DNA of 34,804 nucleotides. It comes from an uncultured Flavobacteriaceae bacterium (GTDB lineage: Bacteria; Bacteroidota; Bacteroidia; Flavobacteriales; Flavobacteriaceae). The translations under genes and the position numbers were made by a program. A model generated the notes under the pieces. It did not search any database. It saw only the letters and a list, made by a program, of their open reading frames with translations, and had not been told where the DNA came from. This document shows positions 6,814-34,721 of this stretch, one piece after another (the first letter of the stretch is position 1; the number at the start of each line of letters is the position of its first letter). The stretch lies in the NCBI GenBank assembly GCA_905479415.1, contig CAJQMK010000046.1:1-34804 (forward strand), given 5' to 3'.

Positions 6814-6842
6814 AATTCTATTTTAATTGAATAAATAGAATT
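6814..6842. repeat. Perfect 10-bp inverted repeat in the divergent lipoprotein/glyS gap
   Basis: AATTCTATTT (6814-6823) and AAATAGAATT (6833-6842) are exact reverse complements separated by 9 bases. The dyad lies in the 98-base gap between the minus-strand lipoprotein gene and glyS, about 18 bases upstream of the glyS -7 match. It could be an operator for a dimeric regulator. No T-run follows on either strand, so a terminator is unlikely. In AT-rich DNA some dyads arise by chance, but 10 of 10 paired bases in a divergent gap deserves notice. Confidence 0.5.
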
Positions 6843-6860
6843 TATATAAAATTTAACTCT

Positions 6861-6868
6861 TATTTTTG
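6861..6868 (+). promoter_or_regulatory. Predicted -7 element of glyS
   Basis: TATTTTTG fits TAnnTTTG exactly. It ends only 4 bases before the glyS ATG at 6873, so transcription would start at or within a few bases of the start codon. A properly spaced -33 TTG is not present (the nearest is at 6827-6829, 31 bases away), so this is a half-match. Confidence 0.35.
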
Positions 6869-6872
6869 TGTT

Positions 6873-8408
6873 ATGAGTAAAGAAGATAAATTTAAAAAAG
6901 TAATCTCTCACGCTAAAGAATATGGATTTGTTTTTCAGTCTAGCGAAATATATGACGGTCTAAGCGCCGTATATGACTATGGACAAAACGGGACAGATCT
7001 TAAAAATAATATTAAGGATTATTGGTTAAAGGCTATGGTTCAATTAAACGATAACATTGTAAATATTGATTCAGCTATTTTGATGCATCCTAAAATATGG
7101 AAAGCATCCGGACATGTAGATGCCTTTAATGATCCGTTAATTGACAACAAGGATTCAAAAAAAAGATATCGAGCTGACGTTTTAATTGAAGATTATATTT
7201 CTAAAATTGATAATAAAATTCAAAAAGAAATTTCAAAAGCAAAAAAAAAATTTGGTGAAAATTTTGATAAAGAACAGTTTGTTTCCACAAATTCAAGAAT
7301 TTTAAATTATAACAATAAAATCAGTGATATAAATAAAGTTTTTAGTGAAGCTTTAGAAAAAGATGACCTTAAAGCTTTGAAAAAATTAATAGAAGATTTA
7401 GAAATTGCTTGCCCCGTTTCAGGATCAAAAAACTGGACAGATGTAAAACAATTCAACTTAATGTTTGGCACTAAATTAGGAGCATCTGCTGAAAGCGCTA
7501 TGGATCTTTACTTACGACCTGAAACTGCTCAAGGTATTTTTGTTAATTTTCTAAATGTTCAAAAAACTAGCAGATTAAAAATCCCCTTTGGAATAGCTCA
7601 AATAGGTAAAGCATTTAGAAATGAAATTGTGGCTAGACAATTTATATTCAGAATGAGAGAGTTTGAACAAATGGAAATGCAGTTTTTTATTAAACCAGGG
7701 ACTCAACAAGAATGGTATGCTAAATGGAAAGAAAACAGATTAGCATGGCATCTTTCACTGGGATTAGGAGAAGATAATTACAGATTTCATGATCATGATA
7801 AACTCGCTCATTATGCCGATGCAGCTTGTGATATTGAGTTTAATTTTCCATTTGGTTTTAAAGAACTGGAGGGAATTCATTCTAGAACTGATTTTGACCT
7901 TACTAGTCATGAAAAATTTTCCTCAAAAAAAATAAAATATTTTGATACTCTTTCCAACGAAAGCTTTACGCCTTATGTTCTTGAAACATCAATAGGTTTA
8001 GATAGAATGTTTTTAGCTATTTTTTCAAAATCTCTAATTGAAGAAAAACTTGAAGACGGCTCCTCAAGGACTGTTTTAAAATTTCCTAAAATTCTAGCTC
8101 CTAAAAAAGTTGCGGTTCTCCCTTTATTAAAGAAAGATGGTCTTCCGGAATTATCAAAACAAATATTAGAAGAATTTAAGTGGGACTATAATTGCGTTTA
8201 TGATGAGAAAGATGCCATAGGAAGAAGATATAGAAGGCAAGATGCTTTAGGAACCCCTTATTGTTTGACTGTGGACCATCAATCTCTTGAAGATAGAACA
8301 ATAACTATTAGAGATAGAGATACAATGAAGCAACAGAGATTAACAGTCCAAGAGGTAAAAAATAAAATAAAAACAGAATTAGACTTGAAATCATGGTTAA
8401 CATTTTAA
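6873..8408 (+). CDS. glyS: Glycyl-tRNA synthetase, homodimeric class II
   Basis: A 511-residue enzyme that charges tRNA-Gly. It is the single-chain alpha2 type of Bacteroidota and eukaryotes, not the GlyQ/GlyS heterotetramer. Visible signatures are RPETAQGIF at 215-223, motif 2 from FRNEI to REFEQMEMQ (248-270) and motif 3 ETSIGLDRMF (371-380). The C-terminal anticodon-binding domain (from ~410) contains RRYRRQDALGTPY. An insert rich in lysine and glutamate around residues 108-180 separates the two halves of the catalytic domain, as is normal here. It is the first of a tight three-gene plus-strand unit, with the next ATG 1 base after its stop. The gene symbol may also appear as glyQS in databases. 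Confidence 0.96.
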   Translation: MSKEDKFKKVISHAKEYGFVFQSSEIYDGLSAVYDYGQNGTDLKNNIKDYWLKAMVQLNDNIVNIDSAILMHPKIWKASGHVDAFNDPLIDNKDSKKRYRADVLIEDYISKIDNKIQKEISKAKKKFGENFDKEQFVSTNSRILNYNNKISDINKVFSEALEKDDLKALKKLIEDLEIACPVSGSKNWTDVKQFNLMFGTKLGASAESAMDLYLRPETAQGIFVNFLNVQKTSRLKIPFGIAQIGKAFRNEIVARQFIFRMREFEQMEMQFFIKPGTQQEWYAKWKENRLAWHLSLGLGEDNYRFHDHDKLAHYADAACDIEFNFPFGFKELEGIHSRTDFDLTSHEKFSSKKIKYFDTLSNESFTPYVLETSIGLDRMFLAIFSKSLIEEKLEDGSSRTVLKFPKILAPKKVAVLPLLKKDGLPELSKQILEEFKWDYNCVYDEKDAIGRRYRRQDALGTPYCLTVDHQSLEDRTITIRDRDTMKQQRLTVQEVKNKIKTELDLKSWLTF

Positions 8409-26833: not shown

Positions 26834-29572
26834 TTAATGAGCTTCAAACCAGTTTGAACCAGTACCCATATCTACTTTTAAAGGGATTGTAATATCATAT
26901 GCATTTTCCATTTCATTTTGAATTATTTCTTTCATTTCTTTCATTTCAGTATTATAAATTTCAAAGACTAATTCATCATGAACTTGAACAAGCATTTTAG
27001 ATTTAAAATTATTGTTTTCTATTCTTTTTTGGATTTTAATCATTGCAAGTTTTATAATATCTGCAGCACTACCTTGAACAGGAGCATTTACTGCATTTCT
27101 TTCAGAAGCTCCTCTAACTATAGGGTTCCTTGAATTAATATCTTTTAAATATCTTTTTCTTCCTAAAATTGTTTTAACATAACCATTCTCTCTAGCAAAA
27201 TTTATCTGTGATGATATATAATTTTTTAATTTAGGATATGCTTCATAATAGGAATCTATCAATTCTTTTGACTCTTTTCTTGATAAAGAAGTTTGATTAC
27301 TAAGTCCAAACGCTGAAACACCATATATAATTCCAAAATTTACAGTCTTAGCGTTACTTCTTTGCTCAGAAGTCACATCATCAATATCAATGTTAAATAC
27401 TTTTGCTGCTGTTGAGCTGTGAATGTCTTGATCATTTTTAAATGCTAAAATCATGTTTGGATCTTTACTTAAACAAGCTATTACACGTAATTCTATTTGG
27501 GAGTAATCAGCAGAAAGCATAGTATAATTTTCATTATTGCAGATAAATGCTTTTCTAATTTCTCTTCCTCTTGGATTTCTAATTGGAATGTTTTGTAAAT
27601 TAGGATTATTACTACTCAGTCTCCCTGTTGAAGCTACAGCTTGATTAAATTCAGCATGAACTCTTAATGTATTAGAATTAATTTGTTTTGGAAGAGCGTC
27701 TACATAGGTGTTTAATAATTTTTGTAAAGATCTCCATTCAAGAACTTTTTCCACAATCAGATGTTCTGATGAAAGTTTTGACAAAATTTCTTCACTTGTT
27801 GAAAATTGACCAGATTTTGTTTTTTTTGGCTTTTCTACAATTTTCATTTTATTAAAAAGTACTTCTCCAAGTTGTTTTGGTGAAGCAAGATTAAATTCTT
27901 CATTTGAAATCTCAAAAATGATTTTTTCAAGTTCATTTAAATCTCTATGAAATTTAATTGAAAGTTCATTTAAAAAATATGAATTTAGTTTTATTCCGTT
28001 GCCTTCCATAACCAATAATACTTTCAACAAGGGCATTTCTATATCTTCAAAAAGATTTAATAATTCTCCGTTTTTTAAATCTTTTTTCAATTGATTGCTT
28101 AATTGAAAATTTAAATCCGATTTTTCCATACATATTTGAATTTCAGATTCGTTTTCTAAATCTGGAGAATAATTCAAATATGTTTGACAAGATGTTTTAA
28201 AATCGTGATTAAGGTCAGGGTTAACTAAGTAATGTGCTATTTTATTATCAAAATATTTTCCTTTAATTTTTATATCTAAATCACCTAAAAGTTTAAACTG
28301 ATGTTTTAAGTCAAATCCAATAATTTTTAAATCTTCCCTCTCAAATATTTTCTTAATTTCGTTTAACGTTTGAGAATCTTTTTTTTCTAAAGTGATGAAG
28401 TAGCTCTTGTCTTTATTCCAACTAAAACTTAACCCAAAACTATTTTCTTTTTCTTGAAACTTAAATATTTCAAGTGAAATTTTATTTTGGTTTTTTAAGA
28501 TGGATAAGGTTAGTTTTTTTGAAAGTTTACTTTCATTTTTTTGATAAAATTTAGATGAATTTAAAAAAGTGTTTTTTTCTTTATTTAAAGTAGTGTCTGA
28601 TTGACCGGGAACATTAAATAAATCATATTGAATATCTTTCTTTTCGATTTTAAAAGTCTGTTCTTTAGCTAAATCTTCTTGTTTTTCCTCAACAAAAATT
28701 CTCTTAAAATTTTCTTTCATTCTGGTAAACTCCAGTTCCTCAAAAATTTCATAAACATTTTTATGATTAGGATTATCTAGTTTAAAGTCGACAAAATCAT
28801 ATTCAATAGGAACGTCCAGCATTATAGTTGCTAACTTTTTTGAAAGAATACCTTTTTCTTTATTTGCCTCAATTTTTTCTCTTAATTTCCCTTTAATTTC
28901 AGATGTATTTTCAAGCAATTTTTCGATTGAACCGTAAAGGTTTATAAATTTCTTAGCAGTTTTTTCGCCAACACCAGGTAAGCCTGGAATATTATCAACA
29001 GAATCACCCATCATGCCTAGAAAGTCAATTACCTGCTTAGGATCGGTAACTTCAAATTTTTGTTGAACTTCTTTTATTCCCCATATTTCAATACCATTTC
29101 CCATTCTAGCAGGTTTGTACATAAAAATATTTTCAGAAACTAACTGTGCAAAATCTTTATCAGGTGTTACCATAAAGACTTCAAAATTATTTTTTTCCGC
29201 ATCTTTTGCAACTGTACCTATTATATCATCTGCTTCATACCCTCTTTTCATTAAAATTGGTATCCCCATTGCTTTTAAGATATTATGAATGTAAGGGACG
29301 GCAATTTTAATTGCGTCTGGAGTTTCGTGTCTATTAGCTTTGTATTCTTCAAACATTTCAACCCTATCACTAGACCCTCCTAAATCAAATGCAACCGCAA
29401 TATTATCTGGTTTTTCTCTTTTAATTAAATCCAATAGTGAATTCATAAAACCCATAATAGCACTTGTATCCATTCCTTTAGAATTTATTCTGGGGTTTTT
29501 TATAAATGCATAATATCCTCTAAAAATTAATGCATAGGCATCAACTAAGAATAGTTTTTTTCTATTGTTCAT
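26834..29572 (-). CDS. polA: DNA polymerase I with apparently inactive 3'-5' exonuclease domain
   Basis: A 912-residue family A polymerase for Okazaki fragment processing and repair. The 5' nuclease domain (1 to ~290) starts with FLVDAYALIFRGYYAF and keeps GYEADD and the helix-hairpin-helix VDNIPGLPGVGEKTA. The polymerase domain (~530-912) has motif A DYSQIELR (689-696), the O helix R738, K742, F746 and Y750-G751, and motif C VHDE (864-867) with D866. Between them (~345-505) the proofreading domain is recognisable by GLSFSW and IAHYLVNPD, but the metal-binding residues are missing. The DTET-type motif is absent, the LKYD aspartate is Q425 (LKHQ), and the YxxxD region is shortened and altered. 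Polymerase and flap functions should remain. It is transcribed alone and is divergent from the metallophosphoesterase gene across 47 bases. Confidence 0.95.
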   Translation of the reverse strand: MNNRKKLFLVDAYALIFRGYYAFIKNPRINSKGMDTSAIMGFMNSLLDLIKREKPDNIAVAFDLGGSSDRVEMFEEYKANRHETPDAIKIAVPYIHNILKAMGIPILMKRGYEADDIIGTVAKDAEKNNFEVFMVTPDKDFAQLVSENIFMYKPARMGNGIEIWGIKEVQQKFEVTDPKQVIDFLGMMGDSVDNIPGLPGVGEKTAKKFINLYGSIEKLLENTSEIKGKLREKIEANKEKGILSKKLATIMLDVPIEYDFVDFKLDNPNHKNVYEIFEELEFTRMKENFKRIFVEEKQEDLAKEQTFKIEKKDIQYDLFNVPGQSDTTLNKEKNTFLNSSKFYQKNESKLSKKLTLSILKNQNKISLEIFKFQEKENSFGLSFSWNKDKSYFITLEKKDSQTLNEIKKIFEREDLKIIGFDLKHQFKLLGDLDIKIKGKYFDNKIAHYLVNPDLNHDFKTSCQTYLNYSPDLENESEIQICMEKSDLNFQLSNQLKKDLKNGELLNLFEDIEMPLLKVLLVMEGNGIKLNSYFLNELSIKFHRDLNELEKIIFEISNEEFNLASPKQLGEVLFNKMKIVEKPKKTKSGQFSTSEEILSKLSSEHLIVEKVLEWRSLQKLLNTYVDALPKQINSNTLRVHAEFNQAVASTGRLSSNNPNLQNIPIRNPRGREIRKAFICNNENYTMLSADYSQIELRVIACLSKDPNMILAFKNDQDIHSSTAAKVFNIDIDDVTSEQRSNAKTVNFGIIYGVSAFGLSNQTSLSRKESKELIDSYYEAYPKLKNYISSQINFARENGYVKTILGRKRYLKDINSRNPIVRGASERNAVNAPVQGSAADIIKLAMIKIQKRIENNNFKSKMLVQVHDELVFEIYNTEMKEMKEIIQNEMENAYDITIPLKVDMGTGSNWFEAH

Positions 29573-29619: not shown

Positions 29620-30849
29620 TTGAGATGGTTATTTATTATCGTTGTTTTTTTATTAATTGAAATATACGCTTTTCAAGCCTTTAAAACATTAACTAAAAAT
29701 AATTGGATAATAAAAATATATACAATTATAAATGTAATTGTATTTGCAAACTTCTTTTTCAGACTGTTTAATATATATTTTCAAAATTTAGATTATTCCG
29801 ACATTTTTTATAATTATCTGTCTGTTCCATTTGCTCTACTCTTTACTTTATTATGTTTTAAATTGATTATTATTTCTTTTCTTTTCTTTGAAGATTTGAT
29901 TAGACTCATAGAATCAACAATTAAATTCTTTTTTTCTAGTTCATCAGATTCTTTTTTGGTTCAAAGAAGAGAATTTTTGAGTAAACTAGCAATTTTAGTT
30001 GCTTCAATTCCAATTCCATTTGTTATCCATGGTATTTTTAAGGGAAGATATAATTACAGAGTATTTAATTATGAATTAGAATTTGATGATCTGCCAGATG
30101 ATTTTGACGGTTATCAATTAACTCATATTTCAGATATTCACAGTGGAAGTTTAAACAATAGAAATAACGTTGAGTATGCGATAGATTTAATTAATAAACA
30201 AAATTCTGATCTTATTTTATTTACTGGAGATATAGTAAACAACAAGTCTAATGAATTAATAGAATGGAAGACATTATTCTCAAAACTTAAGGCAAAAGAT
30301 GGTAAGTATTCAGTTTTAGGAAACCATGATTATGGCGATTATGTACAGTGGAGCTCCAAAAATGAAAAAAAATTAAATTTTCAAATGCTTCTAGATATTC
30401 AAAAAGAAATGGGGTTTAATTTATTGTTAAATGAGAATACCAAAATCAATAAAAATAATAGTTCAATTTCTTTAGTTGGTGTAGAAAATTGGGGAAAAGG
30501 TCGTTTTAAGAAAAAAGGTGATATCGATATGGCTTGCTTAGGGCTTACAAATTCTGATTTTAAAATTGTCATGAGTCATGATCCATCCCATTGGGATAAA
30601 GTATTAATAGATCACAAAACCCATTTTCATTTAACATTAAGTGGTCACACTCATGGAATGCAGTTTGGCATTGAAATTCCAGGGTGGATTAGTTGGAGTC
30701 CTGTTAAATGGGCCTATAAATATTGGGCAGGTATTTATAATAAAAAAAATCAGTTTATAAATGTTAATAGAGGATTTGGTGTTTTAGGTTTTCCGGGAAG
30801 AATTGGTGTTTACCCTGAAATATCAGTGATTAAGCTCAAAAAATCATAG
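29620..30849 (+). CDS. Membrane-anchored metallophosphoesterase (YkuE/YaeI-like)
   Basis: A 409-residue protein with three or four N-terminal membrane helices (about 3-20, 31-50, 68-90 and 120-139) followed by a calcineurin-type phosphoesterase domain. The metal-binding set is complete: D162 and H164 (SDIHSG), D194 (FTGDIVNN), N225 and H226 (GNHDYG), H300 (MSHDPSHW), and H333 and H335 (SGHTHGMQ). Relatives such as YkuE and YaeI act on lipid-linked or envelope substrates, but the substrate here is unknown. The start is TTG 29620. The nearest ATG (29625) is out of frame and no earlier in-frame start is attractive. A thioredoxin-fold gene follows after 44 bases. Confidence 0.87.
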   Translation: MRWLFIIVVFLLIEIYAFQAFKTLTKNNWIIKIYTIINVIVFANFFFRLFNIYFQNLDYSDIFYNYLSVPFALLFTLLCFKLIIISFLFFEDLIRLIESTIKFFFSSSSDSFLVQRREFLSKLAILVASIPIPFVIHGIFKGRYNYRVFNYELEFDDLPDDFDGYQLTHISDIHSGSLNNRNNVEYAIDLINKQNSDLILFTGDIVNNKSNELIEWKTLFSKLKAKDGKYSVLGNHDYGDYVQWSSKNEKKLNFQMLLDIQKEMGFNLLLNENTKINKNNSSISLVGVENWGKGRFKKKGDIDMACLGLTNSDFKIVMSHDPSHWDKVLIDHKTHFHLTLSGHTHGMQFGIEIPGWISWSPVKWAYKYWAGIYNKKNQFINVNRGFGVLGFPGRIGVYPEISVIKLKKS

Positions 30850-30893: not shown

Positions 30894-31190
30894 ATGTCAA
30901 AATTTGGTGAACTTATTAATTTAGAAGTACCAATTCTATTAGACTTCTATGGTGATGGGGATGATTCTTCAAAGGCAATGCATCCTGTGCTTAGAGATGT
31001 TGCGGCTGCAATTGGAGATAAAGGAAAAGTAATTAAAATTAATGTAGATCAAAATAATGAGCTATCTGAAGCTCTAAGAGTAAAAGGATTACCGACATTA
31101 ATGATTTATAAATCTGGAGAAATGGTTTGGAGACAAAGCGGAGAACAAGACGCCAACACTTTGATTAATTTAATTAATGATTTTATTTAA
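30894..31190 (+). CDS. Thioredoxin-fold protein lacking the CxxC active site
   Basis: A 98-residue protein with a full thioredoxin fold pattern: the strand ILLDFYG (14-20), the helix after KAMHPVL (27-33), KVIKINVDQN (45-54), the cis-proline segment GLPTLMIYKSG (65-75) and the C-terminal QSGEQDANTLINLI. Where thioredoxin has WCGPCK, this protein reads GDDSSK (22-27), so both cysteines are replaced (D23 and S26) and the tryptophan is G22. There is no cysteine anywhere in the sequence. It cannot be a dithiol reductase. A binding or scaffold role is possible. The reading frame is intact. Its last 21 bases overlap the 3' end of the convergent GT117 gene. Confidence 0.88.
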   Translation: MSKFGELINLEVPILLDFYGDGDDSSKAMHPVLRDVAAAIGDKGKVIKINVDQNNELSEALRVKGLPTLMIYKSGEMVWRQSGEQDANTLINLINDFI

Positions 31191-34100
31191 ACCCTCTCCA
31201 ATTAATTCTAACTCTTTTATTTCTTTTATTACATAATCTTTCTCAATATCATATTCTTGTATTAATCCAACTAGTGATCTTAATTCAAAATAATCGTTAA
31301 GAATAGACTGAGAATATTCCTCTTTTTTATCTTCCTGCATAGACATTATTATTGCAATTCTTTCCTTAAATTGAGATGATATCTTAATGTATAACTCTCT
31401 AGCAAGTTCATTGCTCTCTGAAATAAAAAGCTGACGTAAAAAGGGGCTAAGTAAAGTGTAATATTCATAATCCCCATAAAGTTCAGACACAAACTCAGTT
31501 GAACTTATATATTGTTTTACAGCTTGAGATTTTAGACTATTATTTTTAGACTTTAAAAGAGTTTCTAAAAGAGACCTATATCTTTCCGTATCAGTTATAA
31601 TACTTTCAGCAAAACTGTATATTGAAAATTTAGAATTTTTTGAATTAGATAGTTGAGAATAGTATTTTAAATTTTCATCATATTTAACAGAAAGCTTTTG
31701 GTAAAGATCATCACCTTTATCATATTTATTTATTTTATAATAGGTTGAGATGTAAGGTTCTAAAAGACTATAATATCCAAAATAATCAATAGGCATTTTT
31801 TTAATAGATAAATCTAATATTTCTTCTGCTTTTTGATATTCTTTATCTGCAATAAGTTGTTTTGCAAGTCTATGAAGATTTCCTCTAAATGAAATACTGT
31901 TTTTTCTAGTCTCAGGATCATGGTAAATCTCAGAACTCTCAGAGTTACCCCACTCCCAACTCTTAACAATATTATACATTAACGAAGAATCTATACGTCC
32001 CATTTCGTATGGATTGTTTTTGTTAATTTCTGTTTTTATTGGAATTAGCTTATAGACAAGGCCGTCAAGTTGAAGAAAATCTTTCATCCATAAATATTCA
32101 GCATCATTATAACTTCCTCCTGTAAAATAAATAGGTCTTTTCCAGTCGTTGTTTGCTAAAATATCTAGCATTAATAATTGATTTTTATATAGGCCGCTAG
32201 TTGGAAGATCAATGTCAATATAATCTACAATTAAATCCTCTTTCTCAGCTTTAACAATTCCGCTCTCTAAAACATTTTTTTTATTGATAGGTACTCTAAT
32301 TTTGTTAGTTGGATAGAAAACCATGTTTTGAGTAAACATTGGAATGTTTTCTAAATCAGCACCATATTGAGTTAATAGATTTTTATATTTGGTTCGAGGA
32401 TGATCACTAGAAATCCAATTCATGAAATCTTTAATATCCCACCTAACAGAATCAATTAAAGCTTCATATTTAATATAATCTCTAATACCATATGCATATT
32501 GACTATGTTTAAGTTGAGAGGGAACTGGGCTGCTATTGTAGGTACGTCTTTTCATTTGATCCATATACCAATCTGTAGCTATTAAACTTGTATTAATAGT
32601 CCTAACATCAGTCCTGTAATTTTCTATTTCTTGAGCATACCATAATGCGAAAGTATCATTATCTCCAATTGTAAAAATCATAGCATCCTTATCCTTGTCA
32701 ATAGAATTTAAATAAGCTTTAGCCAAAGATTGTGCTGTATATCTGTCAGACCTGTCATGGTCATCCCAATTTTGATAACCCATTAAAAGAGGAACAGAAA
32801 GCAATAGTATACTTAATAATGGAACTGATATTTTTTCAGAAAGTATTTTTTTTAATGAATTTGATATTGAGTATAAACTAAGACCAATAAAAATAGAAAA
32901 CACATAAAATGACCCAACTAGTGCATAATCTCGTTCTCGCGGTTCAAAGACTCTTTCATTTAAATAAACTTTTAGTGCTAAGCCAGTAAATAGAAATAAT
33001 AGAATCACAATCCAAAATAGATTTTTATCATTTTTGAAAAGAAACAGCAGTCCTATTAATCCTAAAATTAAAGGAAGCATATAATAAGTATTCCTAGCTT
33101 TATTGTTTTTAAGATCTGAAGGTAAATTAGTTTGAGGACCAAGTCTAAATTCATCTATAAAATTTATTCCAGAAATCCAGTTACCGTTTAACAAATCATA
33201 TTCCCATTTTATATCATTTTGTCTTCCACTGAAATTCCACATAAAATATCTGATATACATCGACCCAATTTGATATTTGAATAGATATTTTAAATTATTA
33301 AGTAATGATGGTTTTTCAATATCTAGATATCCGCCATATTCACTTAAAAACTTGTGATACCCTTCGGCATCGATGTCTCCTTTAGCAACACTTTGATTAA
33401 ATTCATTTACAAGTTTTTTAAAATTTGTTTCTGCTAGATATTCTGGTTTAATTTGAAAATCTAAAAACCCAAAATAGTTCATGTAGTTTATCGCATGTTC
33501 TGAGCTCCACATACGAGGAAGTAGTCCAAGATGCTTACTGTTAGAATTGATTTTTCCCGACTCCCAATCATTTACAATTACATATCTTTTTGTCTTATCG
33601 TCTCTTTCATATTTGGGTTTATCATCTTTATATGGATTGGTTTCATCTTGACCTGCGTAAGCATCAGAAAACATTGGTCCGTAAAAAAGTTTTGTTTCGG
33701 GATACTGCTCTAAGTTGTAATATGCAAGTAAAGCTCTTGCATCAGATGGTGAATTTTCATTAATTACAGTATTGGCATTTGATCTAATAGGAATCATAAG
33801 CCAAGCTGAAAATCCTATAAAAATAAACATTACACAAAGCGTTAGAACATTTGTGTTAATCCAATTTTTTTTTCTAGTGTATGTTAATAAAAAAGAGAAT
33901 AGGGTAATTATTAAAATGGATGTAAAAATTGTTCCAGAATTAAAAGGTAGTCTAAGGCTATTTACAAAAAACACTTCCAGATAGCCGAATAAAGCTAGGG
34001 TTGAAGGCAAAAGAAGCTTAAAAATAAAAAGCAGAACAGTTACAGAAAGAATATTTGCAATTAAAAAACTTTTTAAACTAGGATTTGGATATTTTTTGAA

Positions 34101-34721
34101 AAAATAAATCATTCCAATTGCAGGAATAGCCAAAAGGCCCATAAAGTGAACACCAAATGAAAGTCCCACAACAAAAGAAATTAAAATAAGCCATCTATTA
34201 CCTCTTTCGTTTTCCATATCTGCTTCCCACTTAAATCCTAGCCAAAATAGAAGAGCCATTATAAATGTAGCCATGGCGTAGACTTCAGCCTCAACTGCGT
34301 TAAACCAAAAACTATCAGAAAATGAAAAACATAAAGCTCCAATCGTAGAGGAACTTATTATTTTAATTGCATTTTCATTTGTGATGTTTTCTGAAACGCC
34401 AACAATTTTCTTTCCGATTATTACTATCGTTAAATAGAGTAAATAGATAGTAAACGCACTAGCAAAGACAGACATCATATTCACCATAAATGCAATATCC
34501 TCAGGGTTTGAAGCGAACGAGGAAAAAAACGCACCAATCATTTGAAATAATGGAGCTCCTGGAGGATGCCCTACTTGTAATTTAGCTGATGTCGAAATGT
34601 ATTCTGCAGCATCCCAATAGCTAGCTGTTGGCTCAACAGTCAAAAAATAAGTAGTTAATGCAATTAAAAAAACAATTAATCCTGCTACAGTATTTATTTT
34701 TTCGAATTTTCTAATATTCAT
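31170..34721 (-). CDS. DUF2723 / GT117 family membrane glycosyltransferase
   Basis: An 1183-residue protein. The N-terminal ~650 residues contain about a dozen hydrophobic helices in two groups (roughly 12-310 and 555-660) separated by a long periplasmic-type loop. This is a GT-C-like layout. Helix 1 is followed by the acidic motif WDAAE (36-40) and then VGHPPGAPLF, the signature of DUF2723 (PF11028), a family related to eukaryotic TMEM260 O-mannosyltransferase. A soluble C-terminal part (from ~670) has IGDNDTFALWYAQ and DVRTINTSL, and the last ~200 residues look helical and TPR-like. It is probably a lipid-linked-sugar-dependent transferase acting on the periplasmic side. Acceptor and sugar are not known. 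The full gene is present, with the ATG at 34721. The promoter is unclear: TAATATTG upstream is one base off the -7 consensus. Confidence 0.88.
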   Translation of the reverse strand: MNIRKFEKINTVAGLIVFLIALTTYFLTVEPTASYWDAAEYISTSAKLQVGHPPGAPLFQMIGAFFSSFASNPEDIAFMVNMMSVFASAFTIYLLYLTIVIIGKKIVGVSENITNENAIKIISSSTIGALCFSFSDSFWFNAVEAEVYAMATFIMALLFWLGFKWEADMENERGNRWLILISFVVGLSFGVHFMGLLAIPAIGMIYFFKKYPNPSLKSFLIANILSVTVLLFIFKLLLPSTLALFGYLEVFFVNSLRLPFNSGTIFTSILIITLFSFLLTYTRKKNWINTNVLTLCVMFIFIGFSAWLMIPIRSNANTVINENSPSDARALLAYYNLEQYPETKLFYGPMFSDAYAGQDETNPYKDDKPKYERDDKTKRYVIVNDWESGKINSNSKHLGLLPRMWSSEHAINYMNYFGFLDFQIKPEYLAETNFKKLVNEFNQSVAKGDIDAEGYHKFLSEYGGYLDIEKPSLLNNLKYLFKYQIGSMYIRYFMWNFSGRQNDIKWEYDLLNGNWISGINFIDEFRLGPQTNLPSDLKNNKARNTYYMLPLILGLIGLLFLFKNDKNLFWIVILLFLFTGLALKVYLNERVFEPRERDYALVGSFYVFSIFIGLSLYSISNSLKKILSEKISVPLLSILLLSVPLLMGYQNWDDHDRSDRYTAQSLAKAYLNSIDKDKDAMIFTIGDNDTFALWYAQEIENYRTDVRTINTSLIATDWYMDQMKRRTYNSSPVPSQLKHSQYAYGIRDYIKYEALIDSVRWDIKDFMNWISSDHPRTKYKNLLTQYGADLENIPMFTQNMVFYPTNKIRVPINKKNVLESGIVKAEKEDLIVDYIDIDLPTSGLYKNQLLMLDILANNDWKRPIYFTGGSYNDAEYLWMKDFLQLDGLVYKLIPIKTEINKNNPYEMGRIDSSLMYNIVKSWEWGNSESSEIYHDPETRKNSISFRGNLHRLAKQLIADKEYQKAEEILDLSIKKMPIDYFGYYSLLEPYISTYYKINKYDKGDDLYQKLSVKYDENLKYYSQLSNSKNSKFSIYSFAESIITDTERYRSLLETLLKSKNNSLKSQAVKQYISSTEFVSELYGDYEYYTLLSPFLRQLFISESNELARELYIKISSQFKERIAIIMSMQEDKKEEYSQSILNDYFELRSLVGLIQEYDIEKDYVIKEIKELELIGEGLNKIIN

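Follow-up and report, generated by a model that had tools for sequence, protein, structure and literature searches.

A cysteine-poor thioredoxin-fold protein conserved across the Flavobacteriaceae is a candidate non-redox binding subunit

Introduction

Several described proteins put the thioredoxin fold to uses other than redox catalysis. Escherichia coli CnoX (YbbN), whose motif reads SXXC, is described as a thioredoxin-fold protein that lacks oxidoreductase activity and acts as a holdase (PMC6282202). Bacteriophage T7 DNA polymerase uses host thioredoxin at a 1:1 ratio, and redox activity is dispensable for this association (PMC5984650). The thioredoxin used there is an ordinary redox-active one. 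The SH3BGRL proteins are eukaryotic and presumably form a thioredoxin-fold subfamily different from the one described below. They are described as actin-capping proteins that have a thioredoxin fold, no enzymatic site, and a binding role (PMC12827327). Thioredoxins described from Muribaculaceae carry WCxxC (PMC13404670). A Flavobacterium psychrophilum "thioredoxin family protein," THC0290_2263, is listed under an alternative-sigma (SM4) promoter and may or may not be the protein described here (PMC9723704). Among the matches listed from the open-licence literature, no title or abstract opening names a CxxC-less core thioredoxin of Flavobacteriaceae, and among those listed for Flavobacterium Tn-seq there was nothing of use.

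We analyzed a 34,804-nucleotide contig from an uncultured Flavobacteriaceae bacterium (CAJQMK010000046.1, assembly GCA_905479415.1), referred to in its whole length as the window, and the CxxC-less 98-residue protein that it encodes, to which we give the name TrxX (gene, trxX). Like CnoX, TrxX is a bacterial thioredoxin-fold protein that has lost the first catalytic cysteine; CnoX is reported to have, in addition, a TPR domain at its C terminus and a second conserved cysteine outside the motif (PMC6282202), and TrxX has neither. The non-redox 1:1 binding of the T7 factor is the kind of role that we propose below for TrxX. With TrxA (TIGR01068), TrxX has the fold in common, but TrxA carries a CxxC and is a separate gene; within the window's genus, we read it in 14 of 22 genomes. 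CxxC-type short thioredoxins of the same order resemble TrxX in approximate length, in F4, D17, K48, the cis-proline, and a WRQSG-like strand, and differ in having a WC(G/Q)PC motif, rhodanese genes upstream, and none of the TrxX-specific residues.

A thioredoxin fold without cysteine

The trxX frame starts with ATG, has no internal stops, and encodes 98 residues, none of which is cysteine (Table 1). An initial annotation had described this same intact frame, with GDDSSK in place of WCGPCK, and the open reading frame and its translation agree. Its assignment of the protein to the thioredoxin fold with a cis-proline likewise stands: residues 3 to 95 match PF00085 at 52.5 bits (cut-off, 23.5), P67 occupies the cis-proline position, and structure prediction points the same way. 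The AF2 model, computed from 38 window and locus sequences, had a mean pLDDT of 78.9 and a pTM of 0.69, with its lowest ten-residue block (mean, 65) at residues 21 to 30, and its predicted order of strands and helices is that of thioredoxin. The 50 PDB matches listed by Foldseek had TMq values of 0.70 to 0.82, and their titles name thioredoxins, mutants, chimeras, designs, or presumed thioredoxin-fusion entries; no solved structure was close in sequence, the best match scoring 54 bits.

Table 1. Positions of the features discussed in the text, in the window and on the phage contig
Feature	Position	Strand	Basis or remark
trxX, cysteine-free 98-aa thioredoxin-fold protein	30894..31190	+	ORF, profile, AF2, Foldseek
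Codons 22-27, GDDSSK where WCGPCK is expected	30957..30974	+	Sequence and alignments
Codon 67, cis-Pro of groove loop KGLPT	31092..31094	+	P in 99% of 108 distinct TrxX
Codons 84-89, EQDANT, TrxX-characteristic loop and start of last helix	31143..31160	+	108-sequence alignment
Membrane metallophosphoesterase (MPE), resembles YaeI and LpxG but is under both NCBIfam cut-offs	29620..30849	+	Profile matches
GT117/TMEM260-like protein O-mannosyltransferase homologue, convergent	31170..34721	-	3' overlap with trxX of 21 bp
polA, divergent from MPE	26834..29572	-	<4 kb from trxX in many genomes
Phage TrxX, 98 aa, motif WNDTSN	L212:724-1020		Viral-contig scan

Against the TIGR01068 equivalog of redox thioredoxins, the window protein scored 63.9 bits, under the cut-off of 96.8, with a match spanning almost the full model, and it has no CxxC; it falls outside that group on both counts. 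The tryptophan that precedes the motif is lost as well (G22). Judged from its sequence, the window TrxX is incapable of redox catalysis. A PF00085 search did not find a canonical TrxA in the window's own assembly, which may be a gap, since that assembly is 81% complete.

Distribution of TrxX in the Flavobacteriaceae

From a genome scan, the best 80 of 568 candidates were kept as loci L004 to L083, a set therefore skewed to close relatives; all 80 encode TrxX at 74 to 99% identity, and none has a CxxC. In an order-wide search of 296 genomes, the strong matches belonged to the window's family (Flavobacteriaceae, f1), and matches from other families, among those listed, reached about 112 bits. 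Forty loci (L114 to L153) were then taken from this search by hand for diversity, not at random. At E <= 1e-32, 371 of 395 f1 genomes had a match, as did 338 of the 355 of high quality and 207 of 219 genera, nearly always in single copy. This tally reflects an E-value threshold, with the sequences themselves read for 142 loci; one or more CxxC copies were admitted, such as L134, the second match of G246 (3.2e-33), and for a few genomes at the weak end the count may come from a copy of this kind. Named carriers include Muriicola, Maribacter, Arenibacter, Cellulophaga, and Aequorivita, and trxX is kept in genomes of 1.2 to 1.9 Mb.

Fifteen of the 24 genomes missed at 1e-32 were searched again. 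Three encode a divergent CxxC-less TrxX (L183, L184, and L186), four have a CxxC short thioredoxin as best match (L185 and L187 to L189), and eight yield TrxA-like matches only. So small and heterogeneous a group could not support a phylogenetic profile, and lineages of loss were given up as a route to the partner of TrxX. On the counts obtained in the sampled genomes, TrxX is a core protein of the Flavobacteriaceae.

Residue conservation

We defined the TrxX set by a profile score of >112 bits together with the absence of WC..C. The definition affected L134, L138, and L139, which score 112 to 116 bits and fall to the CxxC group, and L122, which at 114.5 bits falls to TrxX. Loss of the CxxC does not depend on this definition, since WC..C is absent from all 141 loci scoring >130 bits; L122 brings the set to 142. 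These loci give 108 distinct sequences, a set to which L183, L184, and L186 do not belong. The first motif cysteine is found in 0 of the 108 and the second in 11, and 95, including the window, have no cysteine within the first 98 residues. The loss that the initial annotation had seen in one protein is thus clade-wide in the sequences read. The first-cysteine position is mostly N, D, or S, and residue 25 is free; the motif variants are diverse (WNEQST in 39, WNDQST in 9, WDDACK in 6, and others). A cysteine at motif position 26 is kept by the WDDACK sequences of Aequorivita/Ulvibacter type and by a small number of others. It is conceivable that this residue supports a single-cysteine redox or metal role. 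The 95 cysteine-free sequences speak against such a role, as does the requirement of oxidoreductase activity for the first cysteine, stated in the CnoX report (PMC6282202), and we consider it barely credible for the group. For the window protein, it is refuted by the sequence, which contains no cysteine.

While the redox loop drifts, the groove edges and the TrxX-specific residues are nearly fixed among the 108 sequences. D17 (95%), K48 (100%), P67 (99%), and W22 (86%) are conserved, and K3, G5, K48, K64, T68, M77, W79, and R80 are invariant. The fixed or nearly fixed residues whose commonest counterpart differs in 20 CxxC-type relatives include K3, G5, D35, A37 to A39, A60, R62, and K64. Positions 84 to 89 each hold one residue in 87 to 96% of TrxX; E84, Q85, D86, and T89 (87 to 94%) differ from the commonest residue of the CxxC type, residue 87 is the same (A), and residue 88 is tied in the relatives. 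On E. coli thioredoxin numbering, we place residues 84 to 89 next to the cis-Pro loop and the 91-97 loop, which border the client groove. At K64, M77, and 84 to 89, the divergent L183 and L184 differ from the other TrxX. The cis-proline itself is replaced in L122 (KGTITY) and L186 (KGNLTY), both of genus g13; its loss is unusual for a thioredoxin fold.

A cysteine-free groove could bind peptides, and TrxX might, by analogy with the thioredoxin domain of CnoX, be a holdase that binds unfolded polypeptides and passes them to GroEL or DnaK. However, TrxX has no TPR domain (its thioredoxin match, residues 3 to 95, takes up nearly all of the 98 residues), and the conserved second cysteine of SXXC CnoX is missing from the cysteine-free majority. 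In addition, the near-invariance of K3, R62, K64, E84, and D86 suggests a specific partner over general clients. We regard a holdase role as unlikely.

Selection on trxX

Locus L182, from another species of the window's genus, encodes an identical TrxX protein although 28 nucleotides of the gene differ from the window; 26 of them are in the third codon position and 2 in the first. The trxX of L004, a named metagenome-assembled genome, has 19 differences; in both loci the changes are mostly at third positions, and both read GDDSSK. L168 looks like the same organism as L004. The purifying selection that the initial annotation had proposed to look for was evident in dN/dS values of 0.026 to 0.056 in four distinct pairs with a dS of about 1.1 or less; pairs at larger, less reliable dS gave 0.014 to 0.091, and many were saturated. 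Within the protein, pN was 0.136 for residues 20 to 28 versus 0.055 for the rest.

We compared identities to the window for TrxX and for two ribosomal proteins at seven loci. TrxX was clearly the more conserved in four (L008, L009, L010, and L013), at 78 to 84% versus 63 to 65% for uL13 and 58 to 67% for the part of uS9 present. TrxX and uL13 were about equal in L117 (71% and 70%), and TrxX was clearly less conserved in L122 and L124 (46% and 55%, versus 72% and 68% for the ribosomal proteins). The comparison indicates that trxX evolves very slowly in relatives of the window and more quickly in certain lineages.

With its catalytic motif and W22 gone, trxX could be taken for a decaying gene or the product of a sequencing error. 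Decay is rejected by the identical protein in L182 despite its 28 nucleotide differences and by the low dN/dS, and trxX is retained in nearly all sampled f1 genomes. An error in codons 22 to 27, which the initial annotation had raised as a concern, is refuted by the independent genomes of L182 and L004, which agree on the motif; the other case against its reading, in which close orthologues keep the CxxC and selection is relaxed in this genome only, was examined and does not hold. We regard decay or error as almost certainly wrong. By these comparisons trxX is under strong purifying selection and, with the clade-wide loss of the CxxC, the retained non-redox role suggested at the outset, as a binding partner or subunit, is the best reading.

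Gene neighborhood

In the window, the MPE gene ends 44 bp before trxX on the same strand, as first described. Of 98 loci, 76 have an MPE gene upstream in the same orientation and within 300 bp, with a gap commonly of 105 to 110 bp; it is farther away in 10 and was not found in the available flank in 12, and the stretches of L008, L009, L010, L013, L020, and L122 hold trxX with no MPE. The frequent adjacency would fit a TrxX that is a regulatory or structural subunit of the MPE. Nevertheless, trxX is kept where the MPE is distant or missing, MPE identity to the window (mostly 46 to 66% outside its genus) is under that of TrxX, and none appears in the gene listing beside the phage copy described below, so that we find this role quite improbable. 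The suggestion of a shared envelope role is weak: the MPE is a frequent but non-obligatory neighbor, and TrxX begins MSKFGELI, in which no signal peptide is evident by eye.

The convergent GT117 gene is present in 92 of 95 loci, convergent to trxX in 86. Linkage to both neighbors, which the initial annotation had left to be checked, is thus conserved in large part, but that to the MPE is not obligatory. GT117 linkage does not explain the cysteine loss, since a sister family (f6) already has the gene next to its CxxC thioredoxins, and an envelope pairing via GT117 was discarded for the same reason.

Upstream and on the opposite strand, polA was found in 64 of the 94 loci with at least 3,300 bp of flank; among the 30 others, the flank is only 3,500 bp in 23 and at least 6.6 kb in 7. 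The polA gene lies 119 to 371 bp from trxX in 6 of 100 loci and can be directly divergent where the MPE is missing (119 to 136 bp in L008, L009, L010, L013, and L020). Two loci, L116 and L133, have trxX without MPE, polA, or GT117, the stretch of L133 ending 494 bp downstream; the start of the gene ahead of trxX in both looks, by eye, like that of an RND-type transporter. No neighbor of trxX is obligatory, and because trxX occurs without its usual neighbors in L116 and L133, the sequences do not single out a partner. Within the window's genus, 9 of 14 TrxA loci (L156 and L160 to L167) have canonical TrxA and dnaE on one stretch; some of the other five stretches are short. Two cytoplasmic thioredoxins, TrxA with dnaE and TrxX with polA, can thus each neighbor a DNA polymerase gene.

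A phage-borne copy

A CxxC-less TrxX is also carried by one tailed-phage contig, IMGVR_UViG_3300048571_000060 (IMG/VR; 51,538 bp), which is a single contig and possibly a fragment; two further viral-contig scans gave the same contig only. The phage protein is 54% identical to that of the window and 66 to 72% identical, over 85 to 96 residues, to those of genus g2 members of f1, and in a quick tree it nests within the TrxX clade. W79 is missing, and all of residues 85 to 89 differ from the TrxX consensus. Two INPHARED records match the phage protein at about 35% identity. The gene lies two bases behind a 143-aa gene and just before one whose 185-aa product begins with a signal-like sequence; the contig also encodes a terminase, a portal protein, a helicase, an exonuclease, a homologue of the DNA polymerase processivity factor (sliding clamp), and QueE. 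Retention of a CxxC-less copy by a phage is most easily explained if a non-redox role is useful.

By analogy with T7, TrxX might be an accessory factor of a DNA polymerase. The gene stands across the MPE gene from polA, or directly divergent from it, in many loci, and the phage trxX is in the same part of its contig as a helicase/primase gene. However, when the window PolA was aligned with those of Mycobacterium (residues 470 to 910) and Taq (503 to 911), the T7-type thumb insertion was absent; polA was not found in the seven TrxX loci with long upstream flanks or in any of the 20 CxxC-type stretches (L134 to L153); and the phage contig gave no match to a family A polymerase, yet has its sliding-clamp homologue. 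Divergent neighbors, moreover, need not be partners. With the thumb insertion missing from the window PolA, a T7-like factor is reduced to a minor rival, which we hold to be highly improbable.

Origin of TrxX

In a tree of 142 rows, TrxX lies on one side of a branch with support of 100/99, and the CxxC short thioredoxins and TrxA lie on the other; finer forks are limited by few columns and unsettled bootstrap. A second, quick tree put the phage copy and all 37 TrxX sequences, divergent members included, together on the same side of a branch (support, 96). The f6 short thioredoxin (12 loci) has WC(G/Q)PC, except in L145 (WCGPF), and stands behind rhodanese genes, at some distance in L140 and L144; a convergent deacetylase gene is found in 6 of these 12 loci, together with GT117 in 5. 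Of the four CxxC copies in f1, two (L135 and L136) stand behind rhodanese genes. Overall, 16 of 20 CxxC-type loci (L135, L136, L138 to L150, and L153) have a rhodanese match <1 kb upstream on the same strand, L151 has one in the next downstream frame, and three have none. None was found in 20 TrxX loci (L114 to L133; stretches of 7.6 to 14 kb), which keep the deacetylase gene in 17 and GT117 in 17, on the other side. Fisher's test of 17/20 versus 0/20 gave a P value of 2.6e-8, a guide value only, as the loci are related.

We infer that, in the ancestor of most of f1, the gene parted from its rhodanese neighbors and lost its cysteines, in either order. The L145 protein (6829-7122), in which the second cysteine is replaced, adjoins TrxX in the large tree (99/83) and groups with CxxC thioredoxins in the quick tree; it may be an intermediate or reflect long-branch company. 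In L151, the frame directly after the short thioredoxin (7271-7990) has both a TrxX-profile match of 74.6 bits and rhodanese-query matches, and its product is perhaps a fusion.

Proposed role and implications

Taken together, the drift of the redox loop, the conservation of the groove edges, the fixed charges specific to TrxX, strong purifying selection, and viral capture fit a binding subunit, and we think that TrxX is probably a stoichiometric, cytoplasmic, non-redox protein-binding subunit or adaptor. In this model, a short thioredoxin akin to the rhodanese-linked ones would have given rise to TrxX a single time; on parting from the rhodanese genes, TrxX would have lost the redox cysteines while retaining both its fold and its client-binding groove. 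The groove edges (the cis-Pro loop and S82-G83), with K3, R62, K64, and E84 to T89, would then clamp a dedicated partner without a mixed disulfide. That TrxX binds a partner, that it does so at this site, and that binding is its role are each inferred. Fast lineages, loss of the cis-proline in two genomes, absence from some genomes, and the single phage example count against this reading. More speculatively, and in our view doubtful as it stands, a core machine of the cytoplasm could contain TrxX as an essential or nearly essential subunit specific to the family, made by a one-time conversion of a redox enzyme, with phage copies that supply or hijack the machine; given the polA linkage and the phage capture, the machine might be one for DNA replication or repair.

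A thioredoxin incapable of thiol chemistry is among the core genes of an ecologically major bacterial family of water and soil. General profiles still file it as a thioredoxin, even though it is better conserved than two ribosomal proteins in some comparisons. Its origin appears legible from gene order, from a rhodanese-linked CxxC enzyme through separation and cysteine loss, and some members still show the second cysteine only; the change from enzyme to binding subunit would thus be testable in a laboratory Flavobacterium. For flavobacterial genomes in general, trxX genes should not be counted as redox capacity.
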